From Actinomycetes bacterium (lineage in GTDB: Bacteria; Actinomycetota; Acidimicrobiia; Acidimicrobiales; RAAP-2), in the NCBI GenBank assembly GCA_021849435.1, contig JAJZSX010000054.1:1-10737 (forward strand): DNA of 10,737 nucleotides, in the 5' to 3' direction. Of the stretch, positions 1 to 9,861 are shown in pieces. The notes beneath the pieces are model-generated. The model made no database searches and was not told the DNA's origin. It saw nothing but the letters and a program-made list of their open reading frames with translations. Position numbers and translations under genes: made by a program. The first letter of the stretch is position 1; every line of letters starts with the position of its first letter.

Positions 1-473
1 AGTCCGGCTCCATGGACCTCGACCGAGAGTCGCTGGCGGCGCTGGCGCGACGTGCTCCCGACTCGCTCGTCGTCGGCTACAGCCATCGCCCCGATGACAC
101 CGGCTCGACTCCCAACGCCTGGGTCCTCGCGGACCGCGGCGGCGTGGTCGACCAGGTGCCGAGCGGCAACGTCGGCAATGGCGTCGACGGTCCAATTCTT
201 CGCTGGGCGGTAGCGCAGCGCCGTGCCGGCGAGCCCATCGTCTGGGTCAGCGACGGACAGGTCACCGACTCAGCGGACCACCCCGACGCCGAACTGGCGC
301 GCGTATGCGCACGCCTCGTGTTGAAGCATCGCATCGTGATGGTGCGGTCGCTCGACGAGGTGGCTGAGGCCCTCTTGATCCGGCGACGACGACGGCCGTG
401 GAGTGACTTCGGCCGTGTTGGCCGTGCCACCAGGGAAGATGCAGGCGAGCGTCCGTTCGTGACGACGCGCTAA
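1..473 (+). CDS. von Willebrand factor A (VWA) domain protein, C-terminal part
   Basis: The frame is open to the left edge and the first visible codons read S-G-S-M. That matches the last residues of a VWA metal-ion-dependent adhesion site (D-x-S-G-S), so the gene starts upstream and the in-frame ATG at 12 is probably not the start. The visible part covers about 156 residues. It includes a beta-strand-like segment (LVVGYSH) and WVSDGQVTD near residue 80, where the later metal-binding aspartate of VWA folds usually sits. The C-terminus is Arg-rich and ends at TAA 471-473. VWA proteins bind partners through a divalent cation and often act with AAA+ ATPases. The partner gene is outside the window, so the role is unknown. 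The gene ends just before the SOS promoter and is probably a separate transcription unit. Confidence 0.75.
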   Translation, partial: SGSMDLDRESLAALARRAPDSLVVGYSHRPDDTGSTPNAWVLADRGGVVDQVPSGNVGNGVDGPILRWAVAQRRAGEPIVWVSDGQVTDSADHPDAELARVCARLVLKHRIVMVRSLDEVAEALLIRRRRRPWSDFGRVGRATREDAGERPFVTTR

Positions 474-481
474 TCGGGGTC

Positions 482-510
482 TTGTAAAACGAACACCTGT
501 TCGCTACGAT
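482..510 (+). promoter_or_regulatory. sigma-70-type promoter of the LysM-nrdR-dinB gene group
   Basis: TTGTAA (482-487) and TACGAT (505-510) are separated by exactly 17 bp, close to the TTGACA/TANNNT consensus. Transcription would start near 517. One LexA box fills the spacer and the second covers the predicted start point, so LexA should block both polymerase binding and initiation. The promoter lies just after the VWA stop codon and 33 bp before the ATG at 543. Confidence 0.75.
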
Positions 511-525
511 ACGAACAGGTGTTCG
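490..525 (+). promoter_or_regulatory. Two LexA (SOS) boxes in inverted arrangement
   Basis: CGAACACCTGTTCG (490-503) and CGAACAGGTGTTCG (512-525) both match the Gram-positive/actinobacterial SOS box CGAAC-N4-GTTCG. They are exact reverse complements of each other, with 8 bp between them and 22 bp centre to centre, about two helical turns. That puts two LexA dimers on one face of the DNA. The 8-bp gap holds the -10 hexamer. Damage-induced cleavage of LexA would release the promoter. LexA control is inferred from the motif; no lexA gene is present in the window. Confidence 0.88.
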
Positions 526-530
526 TCTAC

Positions 531-537
531 AAGGAGG
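531..537 (+). promoter_or_regulatory. Ribosome binding site fixing the start of the LysM gene
   Basis: AAGGAGG (531-537) lies 5 nt before ATG 543. A GTG at 519 is in the same frame but sits inside the second LexA box and at the predicted transcription start, so it would have no leader. The ATG is therefore preferred. Confidence 0.8.
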
Positions 538-542
538 CCGCG

Positions 543-968
543 ATGTCCGCAGTTGCGCTCACGGAATACGAAATTCGTCCCCCAGCCAGACCCCACCTGC
601 ATCTCGTCGAACAGTCCAGCGTTCCGTGGCGCTTCGGGGTGCACCTCGCGAGTCGCCGGCTCGCGCGGGCCCGTCGGCGTCGCCAGCGCCAGCGCGCGCT
701 GCTTGGGCTCGCCGTGGCCCTTGGCCTGGTGGTGCTCGCGTGGCCGGGTCACGCCTTCGGAGGCACGACGGGCAGCGGGTTGCCCACCGATCTCGCCACG
801 GGCGCGACCCTCGCGTCGGGCATGGTCTACGTCGTCCAGCCAGGTGACAGCGTCGCGTCGATTGCGCGCCTCGTCAACCCCGTGGACCCGGCGTACGCTC
901 GTCGCAGGCTCATCGCGGAATTGCGATCGAGTGTGGTGATCCCCGGTGAGCACGTGCTTATACCATAA
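543..968 (+). CDS. SOS-induced membrane-anchored LysM protein (Rv2719c/ChiZ-like)
   Basis: A 141-residue protein. It has a short Arg-rich cytoplasmic N-terminus, one transmembrane segment at about residues 50-70 (ALLGLAVALGLVVLAW), a Gly/Thr-rich linker, and a C-terminal LysM-like domain from about residue 92 (VYVVQPGDSVASIA through IPGEHVLIP). LysM binds peptidoglycan, so the C-terminus should face the cell wall. The build and position directly before nrdR match mycobacterial Rv2719c (ChiZ), a DNA-damage-induced protein that affects septation. Actinobacterial SOS division inhibitors often have this small LysM form. Two LexA boxes overlap its promoter, which supports a role in delaying division after DNA damage. 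No separate hydrolase domain is visible, so enzymatic activity is not implied. The family assignment rests on domain order, size, neighbour and operator. Confidence 0.8.
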   Translation: MSAVALTEYEIRPPARPHLHLVEQSSVPWRFGVHLASRRLARARRRRQRQRALLGLAVALGLVVLAWPGHAFGGTTGSGLPTDLATGATLASGMVYVVQPGDSVASIARLVNPVDPAYARRRLIAELRSSVVIPGEHVLIP

Positions 969-986
969 TTTCTCGAAAATTGCGTG

Positions 987-992
987 TATCGT
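987..992 (+). promoter_or_regulatory. Possible internal promoter giving leaderless nrdR mRNA
   Basis: TATCGT (987-992) fits the actinobacterial TANNNT -10 element and ends 7 nt before ATG 1000, the usual geometry for leaderless transcripts. Only GGGG directly abuts the ATG, which is badly placed for a Shine-Dalgarno sequence. The preceding 30 bp is unusually AT-rich for this window and includes an AATTT-N5-AAATT inverted repeat (967-981). No convincing -35 element is seen. Confidence 0.35.
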
Positions 993-999
993 GACGGGG

Positions 1000-1470
1000 A
1001 TGCGATGCCCCTTCTGCTCGGCTGATGACGACCGCGTCGTCGATTCGCGCCTGGCCGAAGATGGCGTGGCGATTCGCCGCCGACGCGAATGCGCGGCCTG
1101 CGGACAGCGATATACGACCTTCGAGCGAATCGAGGAGGTGGGGCTCGTCGTGGTCAAGCGCTCGGGCGAGCGCGAACCGTTCGATCAGTCCAAGATCCTC
1201 ATGGGGATCCGGGCGGCGTGCAAGAACCGGCCGGTCGACGAAAGTGTCATGATGCGTATCGCGTCCAGCGTTGAGGAGTCCATGCGCCTGTTGAACCGGG
1301 ACGTGTCGAGTGAAGAGATCGGACGCGCAACCCTCGACGCGCTGCGTCCGGTCGACGACGTCGCGTACGTTCGATTCGCGTCGGTCTACAAGGGCTTCGA
1401 GGGCACCGAGGACTTCGCGCGCGAGATCGGCATGCTCGTCAAGGCGACCGCGCCAAAACTGCGGAGCTGA
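1000..1470 (+). CDS. nrdR: Transcriptional repressor NrdR
   Basis: A 156-residue protein of normal family length, starting MRCPFC. The N-terminal zinc ribbon has Cys3/Cys6 and Cys31/Cys34. An ATP-cone domain follows (about residues 46-136, starting LVVVKRSGEREPFDQSKI). NrdR represses ribonucleotide reductase genes by sensing the ATP/dATP balance through the ATP cone and binding NrdR boxes with the zinc ribbon. The frame is open upstream to 946, but that would add 18 residues overlapping the LysM gene, and the family begins at MRCP. It lies 31 bp after the LysM gene and 2 bp before the deacetylase gene, so it is probably co-transcribed, although a possible internal promoter is noted. No NrdR box or nrd gene is visible in the window, so its targets are elsewhere. 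Confidence 0.96.
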   Translation: MRCPFCSADDDRVVDSRLAEDGVAIRRRRECAACGQRYTTFERIEEVGLVVVKRSGEREPFDQSKILMGIRAACKNRPVDESVMMRIASSVEESMRLLNRDVSSEEIGRATLDALRPVDDVAYVRFASVYKGFEGTEDFAREIGMLVKATAPKLRS

Positions 1471-1472
1471 CG

Positions 1473-2180
1473 GTGCGCAACCTGCGCCTCCAACCCCAGC
1501 GCGCACTGGCGGTCTACGCGCACCCCGACGACGCCGACGTCGCCGCCGGTGGGGTACTCGCCCAGTGGGCGAGCGAGGGCTGTGACGTGCACATGGTGGT
1601 GGTGTGCGACGGCTCGAAGGGTTCGCATACAGGTCAGACCGACGCCAAGTCGCTGCGGGGCGTTCGTCGCTCGGAGTTCGAGAAGGCGGCTGCCTTGCTC
1701 GGGGTGGTGTCGGTCGTCGGCCTCGACCACCCCGACGGTGACGTCGTCAATGACGTCGTGCTGCGCGGCGAGCTCGTGTCGCTCATTCGATCGCTTCGTC
1801 CCGACGTCGTTATCGGCCATGACCCGACCGCCACCTTCTTTGGCGGGGTCTACGTGAATCACCACGACCACCGCGAGACCGGCTGGGCCCTGCTGGACGC
1901 CGTCGCACCCGCCGCCGCGATGCCGCTCTACTTTCCCGAGTACGGCGCGGCCCACCAGGTTCGACACCTCCTGTTGAGCGGCACCCACCAGCCGGACGTC
2001 GTCGTCGACGTCTCGCGCACCATCGACCGCAAGGCCGCGGCGGTGCTGGCGCACGCCTCCCAGCTCGGCGGCGACACCGACGGGATTCGCGAAGTCGTCT
2101 ACGGCCGGGCCGAACAGGCGGGACGTCCAGTCGGTGTCGCCTACGGTGAAGCGTTCCGCAGTGTCCAGCTCACCAACTGA
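1473..2180 (+). CDS. PIG-L/LmbE-family zinc-dependent deacetylase
   Basis: A 235-residue protein starting with GTG 1473, 2 bp after the nrdR stop. GGAG (1463-1466) lies 6 nt upstream. It carries the family signature AHPDDAD at residues 16-22: His17 and Asp20 as metal ligands and Asp19 as the likely catalytic base. A downstream HHDHRETG (residues 130-137) has His133 as the probable third ligand. The family removes acetyl groups from N-acetylglucosamine-type substrates, for example MshB/Mca in mycothiol metabolism and BshB in bacillithiol synthesis. The length is close to the short LmbE/BshB type and shorter than MshB. The substrate cannot be assigned from sequence. Its position between nrdR and dinB hints at a thiol or sugar-amide detoxification role during damage stress, which is inference only. 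Confidence 0.9.
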   Translation: MRNLRLQPQRALAVYAHPDDADVAAGGVLAQWASEGCDVHMVVVCDGSKGSHTGQTDAKSLRGVRRSEFEKAAALLGVVSVVGLDHPDGDVVNDVVLRGELVSLIRSLRPDVVIGHDPTATFFGGVYVNHHDHRETGWALLDAVAPAAAMPLYFPEYGAAHQVRHLLLSGTHQPDVVVDVSRTIDRKAAAVLAHASQLGGDTDGIREVVYGRAEQAGRPVGVAYGEAFRSVQLTN

Positions 2181-3504
2181 CCGGCCAACCGCCGACGACG
2201 CGCCCATCTTGCACGTCGACCTCGACGCCTTCTTCGCCTCGGTCGAGATTCTTGACGACCCCACGCTCGCGGGTCGACCGATCGCGGTCGGTGGCGCGGG
2301 TGAGCGAGGGGTGATCGCGAGCGCCAGTTACGAGGCGCGTCGATTCGGCGTGCGCAGTGGCATGCCGAGCGTGCTGGCGCGACGACGCTGTCCGGCGATG
2401 GTGATCCTGCCGGGCCGATTCGATCGCTACGAGGAGTACTCGCGACGCTTTCGCGACATCGTGACCGACCTCACCCCGATGGTCGAGGCAATCGGACTCG
2501 ACGAACTCTTCGCCGACCTGCGAGGGCTTCGACGCTTGGGCACCGACCCGGTGGCGGCCGGCTGGGCGCTGCGCGGGCGAATCGAGAACGAGCTGCACCT
2601 CGACTGCGGCGTGGGGCTCGCTCGCAACAAGCTCTTCGCGAAATTGGCCTCCAAGCGCTCCAAGCCGAGCGTCGTCAACGGCCGCATCACGCCGGGGGCG
2701 GGTGTCGTCTGGGTCGATCCGGCGACCGAACGGCGGTGGCTCGCCGAACTGCCGGTGGAGGCCCTGTGGGGCGTGGGACCGGCCACCGCGGCCAAGCTGC
2801 ACCGGCTCGGCCTGCGCTGGGTGCGCGACCTGGGCGCGGTGGACGAGTCGACGCTCGCGACGCACGTCGGACCATCGATGGCGGCGACGCTCGTCGCCTA
2901 CGCCCACGGCGACGACCGGCGCGAGGTCGTGGTCGATCGTGGTGCGAAGTCCCTCGGTCACGACGAGACCTTCGCGAAGTCCCTGCGCACCCTCAACGAG
3001 GTTCAGACCGCGGCGCGCGGCCACGCGGCGGTCGTGGCGCGCGCGCTGCGCGCGCACCACCAGCTCGCGCGCACGATCACCCTGGTCGTGCGCTTTGACG
3101 ACCTGCGCACCGTCTCGCGGTCCCAGACCCTCTCCTTTGGCGTGGACGACGACGGGGCCATCGCGATGATCGGCGCGGCCCTGGCCGAGACTGTCGAGCT
3201 GACCCAGAGCGTGCGACTGGTCGGACTCTACGCGTCGTCATTCCTGGAGCGAGGCGCCCACGAGATCCAGCTCACGTTGCCGATGACGATCGATGCGCCC
3301 AGCGCACGCGAAGGGATCGAGGCGGCGACGCGCGCGCGACAGGTCGGCTACGAGGCGCTGCGCGACGCCATCGACGAAGTGCGCCAACGCTTCGGACGCT
3401 CGGCCGTTGGCACCGTCGCCGAGCTCGATGAGCACGGCCTGCAGGTGGCGAGCCAACGGGGCCGCAACGCCTTTGGTCCCGATGCCGGGCCGCCGGCGAC
3501 CTAG
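2161..3504 (+). CDS. dinB: DNA polymerase IV (Y-family translesion polymerase)
   Basis: A 447-residue Y-family polymerase. HVDLDAFFASVE (from residue 18) supplies catalytic Asp20 and the steric-gate position Phe25. SYEARRFGVRSGMPS is the fingers motif. GLDELFAD supplies Asp114/Glu115; the usual Ser of S-x-D-E is Gly here. LGVGLARNKLFAKLASKRSKP-type palm residues and a helix-hairpin-helix (GVGPATAAKLHRLG) follow, then the little-finger domain. QLTLPM (370-375) fits a beta-clamp-binding motif. Start: GTG 2161, which overlaps the deacetylase gene by 20 nt and has GGTGAAG 7 nt upstream. A GTG at 2134 is possible but would lengthen the overlap. The product bypasses DNA lesions in an error-prone manner. 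It is the last gene of the LexA-controlled group, so SOS induction is likely. Confidence 0.95.
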   Translation: MSSSPTDRPTADDAPILHVDLDAFFASVEILDDPTLAGRPIAVGGAGERGVIASASYEARRFGVRSGMPSVLARRRCPAMVILPGRFDRYEEYSRRFRDIVTDLTPMVEAIGLDELFADLRGLRRLGTDPVAAGWALRGRIENELHLDCGVGLARNKLFAKLASKRSKPSVVNGRITPGAGVVWVDPATERRWLAELPVEALWGVGPATAAKLHRLGLRWVRDLGAVDESTLATHVGPSMAATLVAYAHGDDRREVVVDRGAKSLGHDETFAKSLRTLNEVQTAARGHAAVVARALRAHHQLARTITLVVRFDDLRTVSRSQTLSFGVDDDGAIAMIGAALAETVELTQSVRLVGLYASSFLERGAHEIQLTLPMTIDAPSAREGIEAATRARQVGYEALRDAIDEVRQRFGRSAVGTVAELDEHGLQVASQRGRNAFGPDAGPPAT

Positions 3505-3587
3505 CCAGAGGGACCGACGACCCATCGTGGCCGCGACACGGTAGGTTGCCCCTGGGCAGCGTCGCTGGTCGGGACGAAGGGCGGACC

Positions 3588-3746
3588 ATGAAAACGGGCG
3601 TAGTAGTAGCGCTGGCGGTCATCGCCGTGTTGATCCTCGGATCGCTCATCGCATCGGCGATCGCGATCGTGATGAAGGTCGTGGTGATCGCGATCATCGT
3701 CGGGTTCCTGTGGCTATTGAGCCGGAGGGGTCGCGCGAACCGGTAG
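3588..3746 (+). CDS. Small two-helix membrane protein
   Basis: A 52-residue hydrophobic protein starting at ATG 3588, with GAAGG (3576-3580) 7 nt upstream. Two transmembrane segments can be seen, about residues 4-27 (VVVALAVIAVLILGSLIASA) and 30-44 (VVVIAIIVGFLWLL). The C-terminus is basic (SRRGRANR), probably cytoplasmic. The frame is also open from TTG 3546, without a ribosome site. I do not recognise a family. It lies 83 bp after dinB and its stop codon overlaps the possible -10 element of the tRNA. Small SOS-associated membrane proteins exist, but nothing here shows that this is one. Confidence 0.6.
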   Translation: MKTGVVVALAVIAVLILGSLIASAIAIVMKVVVIAIIVGFLWLLSRRGRANR

Positions 3747-3749
3747 CAT
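3744..3749 (+). promoter_or_regulatory. Possible -10 element of the tRNA-Cys promoter
   Basis: TAGCAT (3744-3749) lies 10 bp before the first tRNA base, giving a very short 5' leader. It overlaps the stop codon of the small membrane protein. No good -35 element is found at 16-18 bp spacing. Confidence 0.35.
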
Positions 3750-3759
3750 TGACGTTTCT

Positions 3760-3833
3760 GGCGGCGTGGCCGAGTGGTTAGGCAGGGGCCTGCAAAGCCC
3801 CGTACTCCGGTTCGAATCCGGACGCCGCCTCCA
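3760..3833 (+). tRNA. tRNA-Cys (anticodon GCA)
   Basis: A complete cloverleaf. Acceptor GGCGGCG (3760-3766) pairs with CGCCGCC (3823-3829). The discriminator base is U (3830), as expected for tRNA-Cys, and CCA is encoded at 3831-3833. The anticodon stem GGGGC/GCCCC (3785-3789/3797-3801) encloses the loop CUGCAAA with GCA at 3792-3794. The T arm CCGG-TTCGAAT-CCGG is intact. The 3' half from 3785 onward is the integration core of the island; the integrated copy restores the full tRNA, so the gene stays functional. Confidence 0.97.
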
Positions 3834-3837
3834 GGAT
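3785..3837 (+). repeat. Attachment site attL (53-bp direct repeat, tRNA 3' end)
   Basis: This 53-bp stretch, from the 5' side of the tRNA-Cys anticodon stem through CCA plus GGAT, recurs without mismatch at 7579-7631 (offset 3794). It diverges right outside on both sides (A3784 versus C7578; C3838 versus G7632). A tRNA 3' half duplicated at the far end of a cargo segment is the classic footprint of tyrosine-integrase insertion. Confidence 0.93.
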
Positions 3838-3848
3838 CGGGTCAGTGC

Positions 3849-3870
3849 TGCTTCGGTAGCTGCCACGGTA
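3849..3870 (+). repeat. Arm-type repeat pair downstream of attL (12-bp period)
   Basis: TGCTTCGGTA (3849-3858) and TGCCACGGTA (3861-3870) are 12 bp apart, and the first begins 12 bp after the end of the core repeat. The same layout is found after the second core at 7643-7664. The spacing and position fit integrase arm-binding sites; binding itself is inference. Confidence 0.65.
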
Positions 3871-3970
3871 TTCCAATGCGGACCAGGAGAGAAGGTTCGC
3901 ACCCAAGCTACGGGTTGTCGCTAGGCGGTTCTTCCTGATGCGTTCAGCGACGTGAATACTTCTACTGAGT

Positions 3971-4095
3971 GGCACACGAGTTCGGAGCCCTGTAAGCCCC
4001 GTACTCGTGGGCGACGAGCCAAGTGATCAACGGGCTCTTGAATTAGTAGCCGTCGGTCCTGCCACGGTATTCGACGCGAATCCTGACGGACCAGG
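3971..4095 (+). repeat. Decayed third attachment site with flanking arm motifs
   Basis: GCCCCGTACTC (3996-4006) equals tRNA positions 3797-3807, offset by 199. It is preceded by CCTGTAA in place of CCTGCAAA. TGCCACGGTATTC at 4060-4072 equals 3861-3873, again offset by exactly 199. Upstream, GGCACA (3971-3976) lies 13 bp before the core start equivalent, the same distance as GGCACA 7566 from core 7579. Downstream, GGACCAGG-N-GAGAAG (4088) repeats the motif at 3880. The T-arm part of the core is lost. The match over four landmarks makes chance unlikely. It looks like an old element junction. Confidence 0.7.
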
Positions 4096-4294
4096 CGAGA
4101 AGATGGCTCGTGGCATTGACGACCGAGAGGGCGAAACCCCTTCGCCGACGGAACGCCGACTGGGGCGGGCGTTCCAGAGCTCGGCGACCGGTCACCACCG
4201 TGGACAAACGCTTGCTGAGCTGCCGGTGGCTTCGTCAAGTCGCTTCGCCACGAGATGACTCCGCGAGAAGCTCAGCACTGAGCCGTCGCGAAGT
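4096..4294. other. Non-coding stretch downstream of the AbiE operon
   Basis: No credible gene is seen. Two small inverted repeats are present: GGCGAA/TTCGCC (4130-4135/4141-4146) and GCTCAG-CA-CTGAGC (4270-4283). The second lies just beyond the AbiEii stop (on the minus strand), where a terminator would sit, but there is no T tract. Confidence 0.4.
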
Positions 4295-5260
4295 TCAGAG
4301 GAGCGCTTGTTGCTCGCTGAAGCGGCCGCAGATGTCTTCCCAAGTGGGGAGAGGGCCAGCACCGAAGTACAGCTCGGGCATGGTCGTCTCGTAGGCGTCT
4401 CGGAGCTGGGTTGAGATATCGCTGGCCGGGTCGAACGCCGGACAGGTGGCGAAACCTCCGTGCGGGCGGATCTCGACGCCGTCGGCCGCGAAGAAGGCTT
4501 GGTTGATCTCGGCGATGCTGCCCATCACCTGTTCGGTCTGGTCTCGGTCGGCGAGCAGGTCGAGCACCTGTTGGTCCCCCAAGAGCTCGTAGACGTCGTA
4601 GAAGTGACGTCCGCTGCGCCGGTCGATCGACCCTGCCGTGCCAGCGGCGAACTGCTGGGCCAGGGAGTGGATGAGGACGAGTTTTTCGAGCAGGGTACGA
4701 CCAGGGTGGAGGACGGCCACCTCGAACGGCGTGAGGTCCTCGAACTCGCCGAGTGCGGTTCCGGCGGCTTCGAGCACATCGCCGAGGAGGGATGAGATCG
4801 GCACGCGAGCGTGGGGATGCGGCCCGCCCCGGACACCCATCTCAAGGAGCACGCTGGCGCGGATGAGCGCGGTCGGTTCCCGAGTGGCTGGGTAGGCGAT
4901 CTCGAAGGAGCGGTGCCGGCCGGTCTCGCTCCCTCCGACGCCAGTCGCCGAGCCGCCGACACCGGTGGCGGCGGCCTCGGCCATGGCCTTCATGAGTTTG
5001 TCGGTCGCTCCTCGTCCCCGATCTCCGGGCAGGACGAGGACGTCGATATCTTCGGAGAAACGCTCTATTAGCCGGTATCCCTTGGAGAGACTGGTGCCGC
5101 CTTTGAAGATGAAGTCGCCGCCGAACTCGCGGCCGAGGACGCGGAGCACCTGGCTGACCCAGTAGTCCTTCTCCACGGCGGTGGGGCTGATCCCGAGGCG
5201 CTCGGCGGCCGCGTCGAGTGTCGGTCCGAACTCGCCCTGGTCGGCGAAGCGAGCCACCAC
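4295..5260 (-). CDS. AbiEii/AbiGii-family nucleotidyltransferase toxin
   Basis: A 321-residue minus-strand protein. KDYWVSQVLR (31-40) and FKGGTSLSKGY (52-62) are followed by FSEDIDV (68-74), the G-G-T-S and D-x-D pattern of the DNA polymerase beta-type nucleotidyltransferase fold. LLEKLVLIH and GRHFYDVYELL later in the protein are typical of the AbiEii family. AbiEii toxins act in abortive phage infection or growth arrest, and characterised relatives transfer nucleotides to RNA such as tRNA acceptor ends. GTG 5260 begins 1 nt after the stop of the upstream antitoxin gene, so translation is probably coupled. Oddity: ATGVGGS is repeated twice (residues 98-111), in a Gly-rich insert after the active site. 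Family confidence is high; the exact target is unknown. Confidence 0.93.
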   Translation of the reverse strand: MVARFADQGEFGPTLDAAAERLGISPTAVEKDYWVSQVLRVLGREFGGDFIFKGGTSLSKGYRLIERFSEDIDVLVLPGDRGRGATDKLMKAMAEAAATGVGGSATGVGGSETGRHRSFEIAYPATREPTALIRASVLLEMGVRGGPHPHARVPISSLLGDVLEAAGTALGEFEDLTPFEVAVLHPGRTLLEKLVLIHSLAQQFAAGTAGSIDRRSGRHFYDVYELLGDQQVLDLLADRDQTEQVMGSIAEINQAFFAADGVEIRPHGGFATCPAFDPASDISTQLRDAYETTMPELYFGAGPLPTWEDICGRFSEQQALL

Positions 5261-5261
5261 C

Positions 5262-5939
5262 TCAGCCGGCGAGAGCCAGATCGCGGAGGACCGACTCGCT
5301 GCGCGCCGGGCGAACGATGTCGGTCATCTCGGGTCGGCCGAGCGCGACGAGGAGGCGGCGCAGCCGCTCGCGGACCCGGGGCGGCTCGGTCTCCGCCGCC
5401 CGCGCCACCCGGTCCAAGCGGACGGTGCCATCGCTGGTGAGACGCTCGATTCGCTCCACGGCATCCGCGGCGGGGACCTCGACGAGGCCGTCCCAGTCCC
5501 GTAGTACTTCGAACAGCGCGACCTCGGCCGGGCGGAGGCGCTCGTCACGACGTTTGGTGCTGGCGGCCCGGCTGACGTAGTGGACCGAGCCGGGGTTGCG
5601 GGGTGATCGGCCCGGAACGGCGACCGCCTCCCGGCGGGCCACCTGGGTCGACAGGCCGAGCGCCAGGGCGGCACTTCGTCCGGCCGGACCCGAGCCGGTC
5701 CCGCCGACGACGGCGTCGGCGAGGCGGCCCGGCGGCGGGGGAGCCATGCCTAGTCGGGTAGGGGTGCCGCGCCAGTACAGGCCTCGGCGGACCCGGCGCA
5801 CATCTCCGGAGCGGACCATCCGCGACAGGGCTTGGGCGACCGCGTCGGGCGAGCCGTCGAAGTCCTCAGGACGCCAGAAACGGTCCCGCGAGCCGAGGAC
5901 GCGCGTGCGGACCTCGGTTGCCACGCTGGTCGTGCTCAT
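5262..5939 (-). CDS. AbiEi-type antitoxin/transcriptional regulator (DUF6088-like)
   Basis: A 225-residue protein if started at ATG 5939. The N-terminus is a winged-helix region (about residues 13-57: FWRPEDFDGSPDAVAQALSR, then GDVRRVRRGLYWRG), followed by a middle domain with ALALGLSTQVARREAV and SVHYVSRAAS, and an Arg-rich C-terminal part. The order (antitoxin first, toxin immediately after) and the winged helix match AbiE systems, where AbiEi neutralises the toxin without stable binding and represses its own promoter. Start choice: ATGs at 5951, 5948 and 5939 are in frame. A -10-like TATGAT overlaps the first two, so transcription would begin near 5940 and only ATG 5939 would be available as a leaderless start. 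Confidence 0.88.
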   Translation of the reverse strand: MSTTSVATEVRTRVLGSRDRFWRPEDFDGSPDAVAQALSRMVRSGDVRRVRRGLYWRGTPTRLGMAPPPPGRLADAVVGGTGSGPAGRSAALALGLSTQVARREAVAVPGRSPRNPGSVHYVSRAASTKRRDERLRPAEVALFEVLRDWDGLVEVPAADAVERIERLTSDGTVRLDRVARAAETEPPRVRERLRRLLVALGRPEMTDIVRPARSESVLRDLALAG

Positions 5940-5946
5940 GGGCGAC

Positions 5947-5952
5947 ATCATA
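5947..5952 (-). promoter_or_regulatory. Probable -10 element of the AbiE operon, leaderless start
   Basis: On the minus strand TATGAT (5952 to 5947) is a near-consensus -10 element, and the A of ATG 5939 lies 8 nt after it. No clear -35 element is seen. Upstream, GACATC begins two imperfect 18-bp direct repeats (5944-5961 and 5985-6002, 13 of 18 identical on the plus strand). These could be an operator for AbiEi; this is tentative. Confidence 0.5.
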
Positions 5953-6069
5953 CCACTAATGTCGGCAAAGCGATACGCGAAGTTGACATCGAACTAGTAG
6001 TGACTGGTGGAGGGCGATATTCCGACGTGGTTCATCCGCGGACTGACTCCAATGATGTCTCTGGCTAAC

Positions 6070-6099
6070 TTGAGGACGGCCTCAAATTGGCTGTAGTGT
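6070..6099 (+). promoter_or_regulatory. Promoter of the TetR operon with embedded palindromic operator
   Basis: TTGAGG (6070-6075) and TAGTGT (6094-6099) are spaced 18 bp. The -35 element is one arm of a perfect inverted repeat, TTGAGG-ACGG-CCTCAA (6070-6085), extended outward by AA/TT after one mismatch. A dimeric TetR protein encoded immediately downstream would be the natural ligand, giving autorepression. The -10 element ends 6 bp before GTG 6106, so the message is probably leaderless. Confidence 0.7.
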
Positions 6100-6105
6100 C
6101 GCTTG

Positions 6106-6768
6106 GTGGCCCCAACTACGGACTCTCGGCCGCTTCGTAGCGACGCTCGCCACAACCGCGAGCGGCTGGTCGAGGCCGCGAACGCGCTCTTTGCCGAGGC
6201 GGGTCTCGATGTTCCGTTGGAGACGATTGCCCGGAAGGCGGGTGTCAGCATCGGCACGCTATATAACCGATTTCCATCTCGCGAGCAGCTCTTGGAGGCG
6301 GTCTTCGTTGATCGTATGGAAAGGGTGGTTGCCCTCGTCGAGACTGCGCTGGCTGACGAGGATTCGTGGCAAGGACTGGTCGGCTACCTGACGAGCGTGT
6401 GTGAACTGCAATCCGGCGATCGAGGGTTCAACGACTTGGCGGCCCGCGGGTTCGCCGGGCCTCCCGCTGTTGATGGGCTCCACCGAGTGGCGCGGAGGCG
6501 TATGGCGGAACTCCTCGACCGGGCCAAGGAAGTTGGGATGCTTCGCCGGGATTTCGTCGTCGAAGATCTCACGTTTGTTGTCTGGGGGATCTCGAGGACA
6601 ATCGAGCTCACGGCTCATACTGCTCCCGACGCTTGGCGGCGACACCTGGCCTTGTTACTCGACGGATTCCGTGCCGATGCGGCTCACCCCCTTCTTGTGG
6701 AACCGATGCCGCCTTTCCCGACCGCGACGATGTCGGACCTTGCAACCAGCACCGAGATTGGAGAGTGA
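6106..6768 (+). CDS. TetR/AcrR-family transcriptional repressor
   Basis: A 220-residue protein of usual family length. The N-terminal helix-turn-helix covers about residues 15-60: RERLVEAANALFAEAGLDVP, then TIARKAGVSIGTLYNRF and PSREQLLEAVF. The remainder is the helical ligand-binding/dimer domain. The start is GTG 6106; TTG 6103 is equally in frame, but the predicted transcription start falls at about 6106. The upstream palindrome overlapping its promoter suggests autoregulation. The RibD-C-domain gene starts 1 nt after its stop, so both are one operon and probably share an inducer. The ligand cannot be predicted. It lies within the tRNA-Cys island. Confidence 0.93.
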   Translation: MAPTTDSRPLRSDARHNRERLVEAANALFAEAGLDVPLETIARKAGVSIGTLYNRFPSREQLLEAVFVDRMERVVALVETALADEDSWQGLVGYLTSVCELQSGDRGFNDLAARGFAGPPAVDGLHRVARRRMAELLDRAKEVGMLRRDFVVEDLTFVVWGISRTIELTAHTAPDAWRRHLALLLDGFRADAAHPLLVEPMPPFPTATMSDLATSTEIGE

Positions 6769-6769
6769 G

Positions 6770-7348
6770 TTGGCAACCAGCAGAAGAAGCAACCTGGGAA
6801 AGGTCGTTGTGCACCGGACGATGTCGCTCGACGGGTTCATCGCAGGCGTTGACGATGCGATGGATTGGATCTTCGACTACGTGGTTGCCGACGGGGTTCC
6901 CGAGATGATCGCTGCTACTGGAGCGATTCTCGCCGGTCGGCGAACCTATGAAGTAGGAAGGCGTGATGCTGGCAAGGAGACCGGCGAGGCGTATGGCGGC
7001 GCCTGGTCGGGCCCGCAATACGTCCTGACGCACGATCCACCCGAGAACGCGCCGAACGCCGACGTTGTGTTCCTGACCGGCGACATTCGCGAAGCCGTTG
7101 ACGTTGCCCTCCGGGCCGCTGGCGGCAAGAACCTCGAGATCTTCGGGGGCGAGGTCGCCAGCCAATGCCTGAGACTCGGTCTGGTCGATGAACTACTCGT
7201 CCACATCGTTCCCGTTCTGCTGGGCGATGGCATCCGCTTGTTCACCTCGACAGGTGGAACCCACATCGATCTGGAGACGCGCGGGACCGCGCAGTCGGGA
7301 TCGGTCACCACCATTCGTTGTCGCGTCGCAAGTCTCATTGTGAGCTAG
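6770..7348 (+). CDS. RibD C-terminal/dihydrofolate reductase-like family protein
   Basis: A 192-residue protein. VVVHRTMSLDGFIAGVDDAMDWIF begins the domain (residues 13-36), then GAILAGRRTYEVG (about 49-61), IFGGEVASQCLRLGLVDELLVHIVPVLLGDGIRLF (about 125-159), all typical of the NADPH-binding reductase fold shared by RibD-C and dihydrofolate reductase. Stand-alone members are annotated as dihydrofolate reductase family proteins, but most have no proven folate activity. The start is TTG 6770, 1 nt after the tetR stop, with GGAGAG (6760-6765) 4 nt upstream. The frame runs open back to 6401, but that part only shadows tetR. Coupling with TetR suggests induction by a small molecule. It is cargo of the island. 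Confidence 0.85.
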   Translation: MATSRRSNLGKVVVHRTMSLDGFIAGVDDAMDWIFDYVVADGVPEMIAATGAILAGRRTYEVGRRDAGKETGEAYGGAWSGPQYVLTHDPPENAPNADVVFLTGDIREAVDVALRAAGGKNLEIFGGEVASQCLRLGLVDELLVHIVPVLLGDGIRLFTSTGGTHIDLETRGTAQSGSVTTIRCRVASLIVS

Positions 7349-7445
7349 CCCACGTTTCGTTTTCATCGTCCCTGTTGAGTTCGGGCGGTTTGGTGGGCCG
7401 GCGACAACTCGAGCACGACCGGTGAGGCGTCCTTGGATGTAAGCC

Positions 7446-7467
7446 TGCCACGGTACTTGCCATGGTT
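7446..7467 (+). repeat. Arm-type repeat pair inside the right end of the island
   Basis: TGCCACGGTA (7446-7455) and TGCCATGGTT (7458-7467) are spaced 12 bp, like the pairs beside the two core sites. They lie 112-133 bp left of the second core, as expected for the distal arm of an integrase attachment region. Confidence 0.6.
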
Positions 7468-7545
7468 ATTCACCAGTCCTGTGCGAGGACGGAGGCTAAG
7501 TGAAGTCACGCAAGTGGGACGATCACTAGTGTTTCACTGACTCCT

Positions 7546-7575
7546 GGCACAGTGAGGCACACCTTGGCACAGGTT
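7546..7575 (+). repeat. Three 10-bp repeats beginning GGCACA next to the second core
   Basis: GGCACA starts at 7546, 7556 and 7566, an exact 10-bp period (one helical turn), and the last copy begins 13 bp before the core. One GGCACA is found at the same distance before the decayed core at 3984. Repeats phased with the helix beside an attachment core fit binding sites for an excisionase or integrase. The binding protein is unknown. Confidence 0.6.
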
Positions 7576-7578
7576 GCC

Positions 7579-7631
7579 GGGGCCTGCAAAGCCCCGTACT
7601 CCGGTTCGAATCCGGACGCCGCCTCCAGGAT
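7579..7631 (+). repeat. Second attachment core (53-bp copy of tRNA-Cys 3' end)
   Basis: Identical to 3785-3837. Only the 3' part of the tRNA is present; the acceptor 5' strand and D arm are missing, so it is not a working tRNA. It marks the right end of the island. Because arm-type repeats also follow it (7643-7664), it may be a junction between two elements and not a simple island-chromosome boundary. Confidence 0.92.
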
Positions 7632-7642
7632 GGACGAAATGC

Positions 7643-7664
7643 TGCCCCGGTACTTGCCACGGTA
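7643..7664 (+). repeat. Arm-type repeat pair downstream of the second core
   Basis: TGCCCCGGTA (7643-7652) and TGCCACGGTA (7655-7664) are spaced 12 bp and begin 12 bp after the core, the same geometry as 3849-3870. Sequence beyond 7665 no longer matches the left end after attL, so this would be a different element using the same attachment machinery. Confidence 0.62.
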
Positions 7665-8070
7665 GTTTCCCGGGGGCAGTTTCCGGTAAAACAGGCCCCT
7701 TCCGAGGCGCAGGATCGAAGGTCAGTTCCGGGGTGTTCATTCTGATCTGGGCGGTGTTCAGTTTTCGACCGTCAGCGACAGCCACGCAAGCTACAAGCCG
7801 ATCGCTGCGAGCCTCCTCCGCACAATCGAGCCGGACAGTCTGGAAGAGCGGCGCGAGCGTTGACGGGATCCAAAGCTTTCGCACCGCAGAGGTAGGGCGC
7901 ACCGCAACCGCTGGGCGAAAGCCATCAAGGGAAACTGCTGACCGCCGACACGGCGGCTGAACAGAGACGGGCAGCAGGGTTTCGGAGTCGAGGGTCGGCG
8001 AACTGTTGACGTCCGGACAGCCGACAAACGATGACGATGCGAAGGTCGTAGTGGACTGCGTCGCGAGCCG
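7665..8070. other. Gene-free stretch, possibly with an insertion-sequence end
   Basis: No intact gene is recognised. GGTGTTCA occurs at 7732-7739 and 7753-7760 (21-bp period), with a related GGTCAGTTCC at 7720. Repeated motifs of this kind occur in the ends of IS21-like insertion sequences, but no transposase is seen. A plus-strand segment at about 7783-7863 (beginning HASYKPIAASLLRTIEPDSL) has coding-like codon use before a TGA. It could be a scrap of a broken gene of unknown family. Confidence 0.3.
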
Positions 8071-9024
8071 TCATCGGACGCGAAGCGAGGAGAGGTTGCG
8101 GGTGATGCGCAGGACACCGATGGCGCCCGCCGCGCTGGCGGCCAGCATCACGGCGGCGGTTGCTCCCAGGAGCGGATTGACCGGAGCGCCTCCGGGGTTC
8201 GAGTTCAAAAAAGATGGTGCGTCAGCGGCAATCGCAGCCCACCATGTGGAGGTAGCGGCGAGGATCACCGCCATCGTGGCAGTGACGATCACAGCCAGAG
8301 CCGCCTCGGCGAGAAGCACGGACCGGGAAAAATTGACCTGGCGGGCTGCGATCACGGCCACCAGGGTCCACAGGCCGAGGGTCAGTGCCATCAGGGCCGC
8401 CCAGGCAATGAAAACGGCGCCGTACGAGCCGCTGCCGACGTTTCGCTGCTGACTGTTGAGATGGTGAGCCCACAGTAGGAGAGGAACGGTTGCGCCCACC
8501 GTGACGGCGGTGACCGTCAGCGCCCGCATGACGTGGCCGCGCACGGCAGGCCAGCCGCCGGATCGAAGGAATCGGACGAAGGCGGGCAACGCCACAGCCG
8601 TTCCGAGGAGAACCGCGAAGCCGCTCACCGCGGCGAGCACCTGTACCAGACCGTAGGCCAGGTCAGCGACGGCGTGGGATGCGGGGGGCAGGTGGCTGTC
8701 GATGCCGCCGGGCAGGGCGTTGTCGAAGTGTTCGGAGAACTTGGCGAAGCTGGAGCCGGCGAGCACAAACCCGGCCCAGCCGACCAGCACCAGCAGCGCG
8801 CCGGCTCGTACCCGGTCGCTCGGCGGCGCACTGTCACCGGTCAGGCCGGACTGGCGGGCTCGCTCGCGCAGACCCCCGACCAAGAGGGACATGCGTGCTC
8901 GCGCCGGCGGCCGGCCCGATCCGTAGCTGTCCTGCATAAATAGCACGAGTTCTTCGCCGTAGTGGTCCCGCCAGGGCTTCGGATACCACCGCAGCCAGGG
9001 GTTGAGCTGGCGGTTGGGGCTCAT
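8071..9024 (-). CDS. Six-helix membrane protein paired with PadR regulator
   Basis: A 317-residue minus-strand protein. The N-terminal soluble part has RWYPKPWRDHYGEEL (residues 12-26), a pattern common at the start of actinobacterial membrane proteins encoded beside PadR regulators. About six transmembrane segments follow, such as GALLVLVGWAGFVLAG, VLAAVSGFAVLLGTAVALPA, VTAVTVGATVPLLLWA, AVFIAWAALMALTLGLWTLVA, ALAVIVTATMAVILAA and GATAAVMLAASAAGAIGVL. No catalytic or transport motif is seen, so function is unknown; a sensor or partner of the PadR regulator is possible. Its ATG overlaps the padR stop (ATGA, 9024-9021), so the two are translationally coupled. Confidence 0.82.
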   Translation of the reverse strand: MSPNRQLNPWLRWYPKPWRDHYGEELVLFMQDSYGSGRPPARARMSLLVGGLRERARQSGLTGDSAPPSDRVRAGALLVLVGWAGFVLAGSSFAKFSEHFDNALPGGIDSHLPPASHAVADLAYGLVQVLAAVSGFAVLLGTAVALPAFVRFLRSGGWPAVRGHVMRALTVTAVTVGATVPLLLWAHHLNSQQRNVGSGSYGAVFIAWAALMALTLGLWTLVAVIAARQVNFSRSVLLAEAALAVIVTATMAVILAATSTWWAAIAADAPSFLNSNPGGAPVNPLLGATAAVMLAASAAGAIGVLRITRNLSSLRVR

Positions 9025-9371
9025 GCGCCGAGACCGTGGCCGAGCGTGACATTGAGAGCCAAACGGGAGGCGCCGACCCGGGCCAGCTGTTGCATTTCGC
9101 TGATCGCCTCGGCCAGGACTGCCTTGCCTGCGGCTGTGATCCGATAGGGACGGCGGCGGTCGCTGCTGGGCAGAGCCTCGATGAGCCCTCGCTCTTCCAG
9201 CCTGGTGATCGCCCCATACAACGCCCCAGGGCCGAGCGACGCTCCGGCGAAGCTCTCGATGTCCTTGGCCAGAGCATGCCCGTGCTTGGGGCCTTCGGCC
9301 AGGCTGGTCAGAATGAGCAGTGGCGGATCATTGGCCTTACGGGGCCTAGAGGACCCTTCGCGGCGACTCAT
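9021..9371 (-). CDS. PadR-family transcriptional regulator
   Basis: A 116-residue minus-strand protein with the winged-helix core of PadR: LLILTSLAEGPKHGHALAKD (18-37), LGPGALYGAITRLEERGLIE (46-65) and RRRPYRITAAGKAVLAE (72-88). The short helical C-terminus fits the small PadR class (PadR-s2). These proteins usually repress their own operon and respond to small molecules or stress. A near-perfect 30-bp palindrome overlaps its predicted promoter. It is first in an operon with the membrane protein. The start is ATG 9371; the message may be leaderless or have a very short leader. Confidence 0.92.
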   Translation of the reverse strand: MSRREGSSRPRKANDPPLLILTSLAEGPKHGHALAKDIESFAGASLGPGALYGAITRLEERGLIEALPSSDRRRPYRITAAGKAVLAEAISEMQQLARVGASRLALNVTLGHGLGA

Positions 9372-9380
9372 AAGTGCAAG

Positions 9381-9413
9381 ATACTACGTCTTGCGTAGCT
9401 ACGCAACACGTAG
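9381..9413 (-). promoter_or_regulatory. padR promoter with 30-bp palindromic operator
   Basis: The segment 9384-9413 is an inverted repeat with one mismatched pair. Its centre TTGCGTAGCTACGCAA (9391-9406) is perfect and is flanked by CTACGT and ACGTAG. On the minus strand TAGTAT (9386 to 9381) is a -10 element, with GTGTTG (9409 to 9404) 17 bp upstream as a weak -35. The palindrome covers the whole core promoter, so PadR binding would shut off its own operon. The -10 element ends 9 nt before ATG 9371. Confidence 0.7.
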
Positions 9414-9861
9414 ATATCGTCGCCGCGATACTGGCAGCCTTCCACCCGCCTCTATCCTTTGGCCCTGCGACTTGCGACGACCTGAGGCTCATGGCGGGAT
9501 GCGGCAGCCAGCGGGCGAGACGAATGGTCCTGGGTGGGCCTATCGACGGGTCGGCGCTCAGCCTCTCGGATACCGTCTATCTGGAGAGTGTCCCATATCA
9601 GGCGACCATAACGTCCCGCGTCCGCTCAGCGCGGGTGTCCTCCAACGCCGGATTGGGGTGCGTTATCGCTGTCGAGGTGTGGCTACTCAGCGCGATCAGG
9701 CCGATCGATCGAGCTGCTGATCCGGGCCGCCCCAGGTTAATCCGAGCCCGCTCCTTTCCGAGCCTGCGCAAGCGTGGAGGAACTCGCCTCCCCATAATCC
9801 CCTTCGGTGTATGGCTTGTAGCCTCAGTTGGGTGGAGGAGACAGGACGGTCCGTCGACCCG
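9414..9861. other. Gene-free stretch between padR and the unknown-gene pair
   Basis: Some frames are open across it, but none has a ribosome site or a recognisable product. One hairpin, CCCGCG/CGCGGG (9615-9620/9630-9635), is present without a T tract. GGAGGAG (9834-9840) is too far from ATG 9862 to be a normal ribosome site, but it could serve a start not identified here. I see no promoter of good quality for the downstream genes. Confidence 0.4.

Follow-up and report, generated by a model that had tools for sequence, protein, structure and literature searches.

Genomic islands that lack an integrase of their own are easily dismissed as dead remnants, and several kinds of them have been described (sources are cited here and below for particular passages). 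Cis-mobilizable elements (CIMEs) are defined by flanking attachment (att) sites, attL and attR, by the absence of integration and transfer genes and by accretion at one site (PMC5704250). In Dehalococcoides, 15 islands at ssrA without an integration module were suggested to be cis-mobilizable, and 16 keep a serine-recombinase module (PMC3146451). Cassettes at tRNA repeats have been reported from Ca. Actinomarinales (PMC7771536) and Methylophilaceae (PMC10872708), and tmRNA islands carried by jumbo phages encode a tyrosine integrase needed for excision (PMC12595487). Here we describe a stretch of 10,737 nucleotides (the window) from an Actinomycetes bacterium of the Acidimicrobiales (contig JAJZSX010000054.1), in which positions 3785-7631 form an island at a tRNA-Cys gene. 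This is probably a non-autonomous, CIME-like genomic island that depends on a helper. The reading rests on sequence, namely on shared ends with unrelated cargo, tandem structure, the lack of a detectable integrase, an att-bounded tract, empty sites and an exchanged left end. An initial annotation had seen here either a passenger element moved by an integrase encoded elsewhere or a remnant kept by toxin-antitoxin addiction, an interpretation that is partly supported.

The island resembles a CIME in its attL/attR-type flanks, which appear as 53-bp cores with arms on both sides, in its lack of integration and conjugation genes and in its tandem accretion. Unlike a CIME, it has no recognised parent integrative and conjugative element (ICE) or integrative and mobilizable element (IME), several unrelated cargoes have the same arm sites, a second core-like site lies inside the element, and a sister array occurs in two species with no helper left inside. 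It differs from an IME in encoding no excision or integration enzyme, and from an integron cassette in that no integrase was detected, IntI included. Like the Dehalococcoides islands, it is tandem and bounded by repeats of the 3' end of an RNA gene; unlike them, as far as the cited passages go, its site is tRNA-Cys instead of tmRNA, and no sister sharing its ends was found to carry an integrase. It shares with the additive flexible islands of Actinomarinales and Methylophilaceae the cassettes at tRNAs, the partial-tRNA repeats and the variability between close strains, whereas shared arm sites, an internal core-like site and an exact att-bounded tract set it apart from those islands as described in the cited passages. 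With the jumbo-phage islands, as there described, it has in common an RNA-gene target, defence cargo and the absence of transfer genes, but not the tyrosine integrase.

No description of these tRNA-Cys islands was found in the passages of open-licence PubMed Central literature covered. The kind of island is already known; what appears to be new, as far as searched, is the sharing of arms across unrelated cargo, an island-specific palindrome with a mapped breakpoint and an exact interspecies tract. The ends of the islands in this set are built alike, whereas the cargoes are unrelated. If the reading is correct, genes for metal resistance and defence are carried in these actinobacteria as minimal passengers, which integrase-keyed annotation would miss, and the palindrome and arm pair offer a direct sequence handle for finding such islands and their helper.

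An island family defined by its ends

A single tRNA-Cys(GCA), the target gene, was found by ARAGORN and Rfam at 3760-3833 (+ strand). In the Rfam scan at the gathering threshold the tRNA alone matched, and attC was not modelled specifically. A direct repeat of 89 bp with 88% identity (3782-3870 and 7576-7664) includes exactly 53 identical bases, read from the sequence, at 3785-3837 and 7579-7631 (both +), so the perfect copy of the tRNA 3' part reported initially stands. An exact repeat of this kind is not chance. Core copy 1, on the attL side, runs from the anticodon arm to just beyond the tRNA 3' end; under the usual integration scheme the 3' half of the tRNA would have been supplied by the element. 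The chromosomal left neighbour is dinB (2134-3504, +; Pfam IMS), which also lies upstream of tRNA-Cys in related loci. Among the best 80 of 531 loci compared by dinB protein, the closest is L001 (JAKAFH010000065.1, Actinomycetes bacterium isolate WY1.bin86) at 99% identity, followed by L002 at 83% and L014 at 73% (both Actinomycetes), with many of the others Acidimicrobiaceae. Since L001 aligns to window positions 345-9789 at 98.8%, it was treated as the window's species; this near-identical relative carries the same island.

The ends carry repeated candidate arm sites of the pattern TGCCNCGGTA-NN-TGCCACGGTA. With at most one mismatch, TGCCACGGTA occurs in the window at 3861, 4060, 7446, 7643 and 7655, a count of five that none of 200 shuffles reached. 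These belong to a left pair, TGCTTCGGTA-GC-TGCCACGGTA (3849-3870, +), which has a 12-bp period and a first unit two mismatches off TGCCACGGTA, a third left arm TGCCACGGTA (4060-4069, +), a right pair TGCCACGGTA-CT-TGCCATGGTT (7446-7467, +) and a further pair at 7643-7664 (+). The last follows the second core at the same 16-bp spacing past the tRNA 3' end as the pair at 3849-3870, and an exact pattern match sits at the same place in genome G001; a second, tandem element therefore probably begins there. Thus 7579-7631, initially taken as the end of mobile DNA, is more likely the joint of two tandem elements, being the right end of element 1 and the probable left core of element 2. The ABC exporter and HAD phosphatase genes that lie downstream of tRNA-Cys in island-free relatives have no match in the window, which seems to hold the complete element 1 and the start of an element 2 whose right end runs past it. 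At the left end of element 2 all but the arms is degenerate, with about 50% identity to other left ends and no good palindrome.

The family sample comprised 172 genomes, 150 of which match a 141-base tRNA-Cys query. A search with the tRNA-free left end (3834-4080), scoring four candidates in each genome, gave matches in 7 of the 172 at E 0.01 or better, clear ones in G001, G143, G151 and G113 and weak ones in G116, G056 and G032. For the right end past the core, matches lie in G001, G143 and G151 (two places each) and in G113; those in G093, G095, G096, G088 and G116 are shorter or weaker. When 13 islands or part-islands and 3 integrase controls were compared all against all, window element 1, both elements of G143 and the island of G113, whose two ends sit on different contigs, had only their ends in common. 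Left ends match over 164-244 bp and right ends over 130-136 bp, the right-end match of window element 1 with G143 element 2 being 48 bp. The only other matches were between G108 and G154 (1166 bp, 89%) and those of the G126 and G170 controls.

Between these ends the cargo differs. Element 1 of G143/G151 carries MerR and a pyridine nucleotide-disulphide oxidoreductase read as mercuric reductase, and element 2 carries ArsA, an SBF-family transporter read as ACR3, a P-type ATPase and an oxidoreductase, so that the two are read as mercury first, then arsenic. The G113 island holds, by eye, an ABC transporter. Toxin-antitoxin addiction is not needed to explain retention, since sister islands whose cargo is read as mercury, arsenic or ABC-transporter genes have the same ends. 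Other tRNA-Cys islands with other ends contain ThiF/ABC/Clp_N (G116), MFS (G095), an M50 protease with an erythromycin-esterase-family protein (G096), RHH/PIN (G108) or IS110 with RHH/PIN (G154, the latter pair identified by eye and through the match to G108). The RHH/PIN islands of G108:C162 (L258) and G154:C101 (L154) share 89% DNA identity. Gene calls in relatives were made with a simple codon-position script on genomes of unstated completeness.

Integrase searches, apparent movement and empty sites

No recombinase gene was found between the window cores by Pfam, an integrase profile or tblastn, in line with the initial annotation. A PF00589 search of 13 genomes placed no match in an island among the matches listed. 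A local profile built from 30 family integrases and run over all frames of the 13 islands or part-islands gave a best E of 0.51, with controls at 7.4e-13 (G170) and 1.3e-17 (G040). tblastn with the integrases of G170, G040 and L002 and the helix-turn-helix (HTH) protein of G170 gave a best island E of 0.25 and found its controls. The five PF00589 matches of G143 were labelled in this analysis as two Xer-like genes and a group of three. Groups of at least two adjacent tyrosine recombinase genes were seen, among the 13 genomes, at G143:C1:1199381-1202559, on G001:C148 and on contigs of G003, G154 and G093; we take such adjacent genes to resemble a recombinase-in-trio.

Sister islands in G143 and G151 appear to have moved as an att-bounded unit without an island-encoded integrase. 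From tRNA-Cys to the third core, the two genomes differ by 1 substitution in 21.4 kb, against 1265 substitutions in about 10.7 kb of left flank (11.8%) and 10-19% divergence in the first five 500-base bins of right flank. The last left difference lies 5 bp before the tRNA and the first right difference directly after core 3. A near-identical tract within att limits suggests that the array recently passed between the species, or from one source into both. Together with unrelated cargoes on the same integrase-less ends, this tract supports the earlier suggestion of a passenger moved by an outside integrase. In G108 and G154 the T stem reads TTGGG/CCCAA in the tRNA and CCGG/CCGG in the displaced core; the two are therefore not a local duplication, and the difference is expected from a crossover.

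Island-free loci with the order dinB, tRNA-Cys and chromosome, predicted by the initial annotation for close relatives, were found in the family (L008, L010, L015 and L024); within the window's own species, L001 carries the island. An ABC or HAD gene follows tRNA-Cys by 128-335 bp in L010, L015, L024, L008 and L252; dinB lies upstream in the first four, and the L252 stretch is too short to tell. The corresponding distance is 0.9-1.0 kb in L250 and L111. At the occupied sites of G113, G143, G151 and G154, the ABC/HAD genes lie 1.7-4.35 kb past the last displaced core (the displaced core of G154 aligns from base 4 and was so counted as a full tRNA in the empty-site listing). G107 and G115 were dropped as occupied sites, as their cores sit at contig ends and are perhaps the broken tRNA itself. 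The protein after core 3 of G143 was tried as an empty-site marker and had no match beside tRNA-Cys among the places listed, and the ABC/HAD genes were used instead.

Proposed helper-dependent transfer and its alternatives

Known tyrosine integrases recognise a core, whose inverted arms enclose a short overlap (often the anticodon loop), and arm sites further away. Candidates for all known parts of such a site are present here except the enzyme. We hypothesize that the tyrosine integrase of a helper element, encoded outside the island, would bind the paired TGCCNCGGTA arms at both ends and carry out recombination in the tRNA-Cys core, across the anticodon loop. Either by itself or together with its tandem neighbor, the island would excise and enter another tRNA-Cys, and repeated entry would stack elements head to tail into arrays such as those of the window and G143/G151. 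Following the CIME accretion scheme, a helper might also integrate in tandem, the composite move and the helper then leave. We infer the helper integrase and its action in trans, as well as a transfer route by conjugation or phage and the role of the cargo in the host.

Several results weigh against helper-dependent transfer. A helper with matching arms or palindrome was not found in the 172 family genomes, nor one with matching arms in 397 genomes of the order; exact core and arm patterns gave 0 matches in IMG/VR; and the left-end matches listed for plasmids and phages (15/15 and 20/41 records) are limited to roughly the tRNA part. All that these helper searches returned were islands, tRNA-type matches or scattered ones. 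Evidence of transfer comes from the sister islands of G143 and G151 instead of the window's own island, and some small chance of a chimera of those two assemblies remains. At up to two mismatches the arm pair occurs at 17 places in 10 of the 172 genomes, 11 of them at island ends, which is not above the reversed control (about 30 places), so that at this level position alone is informative. The integrase profile missed a 722-base control from G126 holding a known 170-aa integrase fragment (E 3.8), and short remnants of unlike integrases could thus escape detection. On G150:C116 tRNA-Cys has a PF00589 gene at a distance of 7.7 kb, and no second core was observed there.

Integrase genes do adjoin tRNA-Cys elsewhere, in G170 (404 aa, with an HTH_17 protein), G040 (402 aa) and G126/L002 (a 170-aa frame). 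The repeats of these elements differ from the island arms, and none was seen with both ends on one contig. The G170/G126 integrase was set aside as a direct partner because the repeats in its flank are of another kind (AGGTTGGCAG pairs at +32), and arm matches in G038, G039 and G040 were rejected as helper sites, lying inside one coding sequence.

Such integrases beside the same tRNA-Cys in G170, G126 (the short frame) and G040 would suit an origin of the islands as autonomous elements that lost their own integrase and are now fixed fossils, as would the left end of window element 2, with its arms and no good palindrome, and the description of CIMEs, in the passages cited, as decayed ICEs or IMEs (PMC5704250). 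We consider this unlikely: the 13 islands or part-islands hold no detected integrase remnant, with the caveat of the missed G126 fragment, different cargo lies between the same arms on both sides, and the G143/G151 array, with no integrase found inside it, seems to have moved recently.

Homologous recombination through the tRNA and its flanks, as in additive or replacement exchange of flexible islands, might also spread such arrays. The flanking genes are homologous between species, and the left-end difference between the window and L001 (described below) includes a 7%-divergent stretch to about 4400 that resembles a tract of homologous exchange. The 21.4-kb tract, however, has borders that both coincide with att cores to within a few bases, and no donor flank was carried along, which makes this route improbable. 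A chimera from assembly or binning, with immobile islands, is a very improbable source of the tract: G151 is a metagenome assembly, but in both genomes the array lies inside a long contig (1,211,899 and 127,483 bases) and is bordered on either side by divergent sequence, so two false joins would be needed.

With at most one mismatch, the arm pair occurs at 7 places in 3 of the 397 genomes of the order (reversed control, 4), and 6 of the 7 sit at tRNA-Cys islands of G001 and G143. Among 66 distinct tRNA-Cys 3' flanks, 12-bp-spaced repeats with other letters lie at +11 to +16 in G142, G154, G093 and G140, and these may conceivably be sister arm families. By chance a repeat score of 9/10 arises in 0.7% of shuffles, 8 in 6% and 7, the score of G140, in 25%; scores of 8 or 9 also occur in several flanks where no island is known.

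Internal palindrome, cargo and the second element

A core-like 10-7-10 palindrome, AGTTCGGAGC-CCTGTAA-GCCCCGTACT, lies at 3979-4005 (DNA hairpin z -3.19). The pattern AGTACGGGGC-N7-GCCCCGTACT with at most two mismatches was found at 7 places in 5 of the 172 family genomes (control 0), all within left ends of tRNA-Cys islands (G001, G113, G116, G143 twice and G151 twice), about 135-160 bp inside the left end. Its right arm GCCCCGTACT is the right arm of the tRNA core, with poorer agreement in G143 element 2. The central seven bases read CCTGTAA in the window and L001, CCTGCAA in G143 twice, CCGGCAA in G113 and GCTGTGA in G116; CTGCAAA is thus replaced by CCTGYAA, relative to the tRNA core, in 4 of 6 left-end palindromes. 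By eye, most copies have no T-run (G143 element 1 has TTTT), and a role as transcription terminator was set aside on this inspection, made without a terminator scan. Use by XerCD was considered as well; the 7-bp spacer and arms are presumably unlike dif, which was not searched for.

The palindrome coincides with a breakpoint between the window and L001. These differ by 101 substitutions in 9.4 kb, with 37 in the 154 bp of 3834-3987 (24%), 1 in 3988-4013, 27 in 4014-4400 (7%) and 0.2-0.6% divergence in the remainder; 12 columns of the left arm pair (3849-3870) are deleted in L001. In the outer left end, 12 sites pair the window with G143 element 1 and L001 with G143 element 2, none shows the opposite crossing and 3 pair the window with L001; in the inner left end the corresponding counts are 0, 0 and 10, and the switch falls on 3979-4005. 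Most simply read, either the window strain or L001 received its outer left end from another element. The exchange may have gone by an integrase at the palindrome or by homologous recombination, and the 7% tract points to some homologous recombination. We suggest tentatively, as a possibility more doubtful than not, that the palindrome is a second, symmetric integrase core site at which recombination swaps the outer left end and its arms between elements. Such an end-switching system would let a passenger island without an integrase change which helper integrase recognises its ends.

The cargo of element 1 is as first annotated, as shown by PADLOC for the AbiE pair and by Pfam for AbiEii and the TetR/RibD_C pair. 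Genes of the adjacent AbiEi and AbiEii families, which make up a predicted type IV toxin-antitoxin system, lie on the minus strand. AbiEii, the predicted nucleotidyltransferase toxin (4295-5260), matches Pfam PF08843 (5.4e-29) and PADLOC PDLC02322 (8.5e-90). The antitoxin and regulator AbiEi (5262-5951) matches PDLC02246 (5.2e-74), with Pfam AbiEi_4 below its cut-off. On the plus strand are a TetR-family regulator (6103-6768; TetR_N, 6.9e-14) and a dihydrofolate-reductase-like RibD_C gene (6770-7348; RibD_C, 1e-12 on the longer frame 6401-7348), which probably starts at TTG 6770. None of the four is a conjugation gene.

The AbiE operon and the TetR-RibD_C pair were searched for with two candidates scored per genome. 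Among the matches listed, TetR-RibD_C has none outside G001. Copies of the AbiE operon (4295-5988) with 82-88% identity lie in G048 (two), G053 and G076, and G009, G079 and G090 give short, weak matches. In the four copies (G048:C287, G048:C174, G053:C52 and G076:C98; L275-L278) the right edge of the block agrees within 3 bases, and in the three complete copies the left edge agrees within 18 bases; the edges lie near the AbiEii stop codon and about 37 bp ahead of AbiEi. The operon may be a unit that travels between mobile elements. In G048 and G076 the block adjoins genes taken by eye, without a family search, for conjugation genes.

Contigs stop inside the tRNA-Cys core in G116:C242 (L145), G107:C101, G115:C139, L004, L009 and L035. 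Multiple core copies that break assemblies would be expected to give such ends, as might a plain assembly break, and arrays may be under-counted. Element 2 of the window carries a PadR regulator, identified by Pfam, and a 317-aa protein without a Pfam match (8071-9371, -). L001 leaves the window alignment after its position 9434 (window 9789), where by eye an IS21-type istA-like gene begins, and this sequence reads like a strain-specific insertion in element 2.

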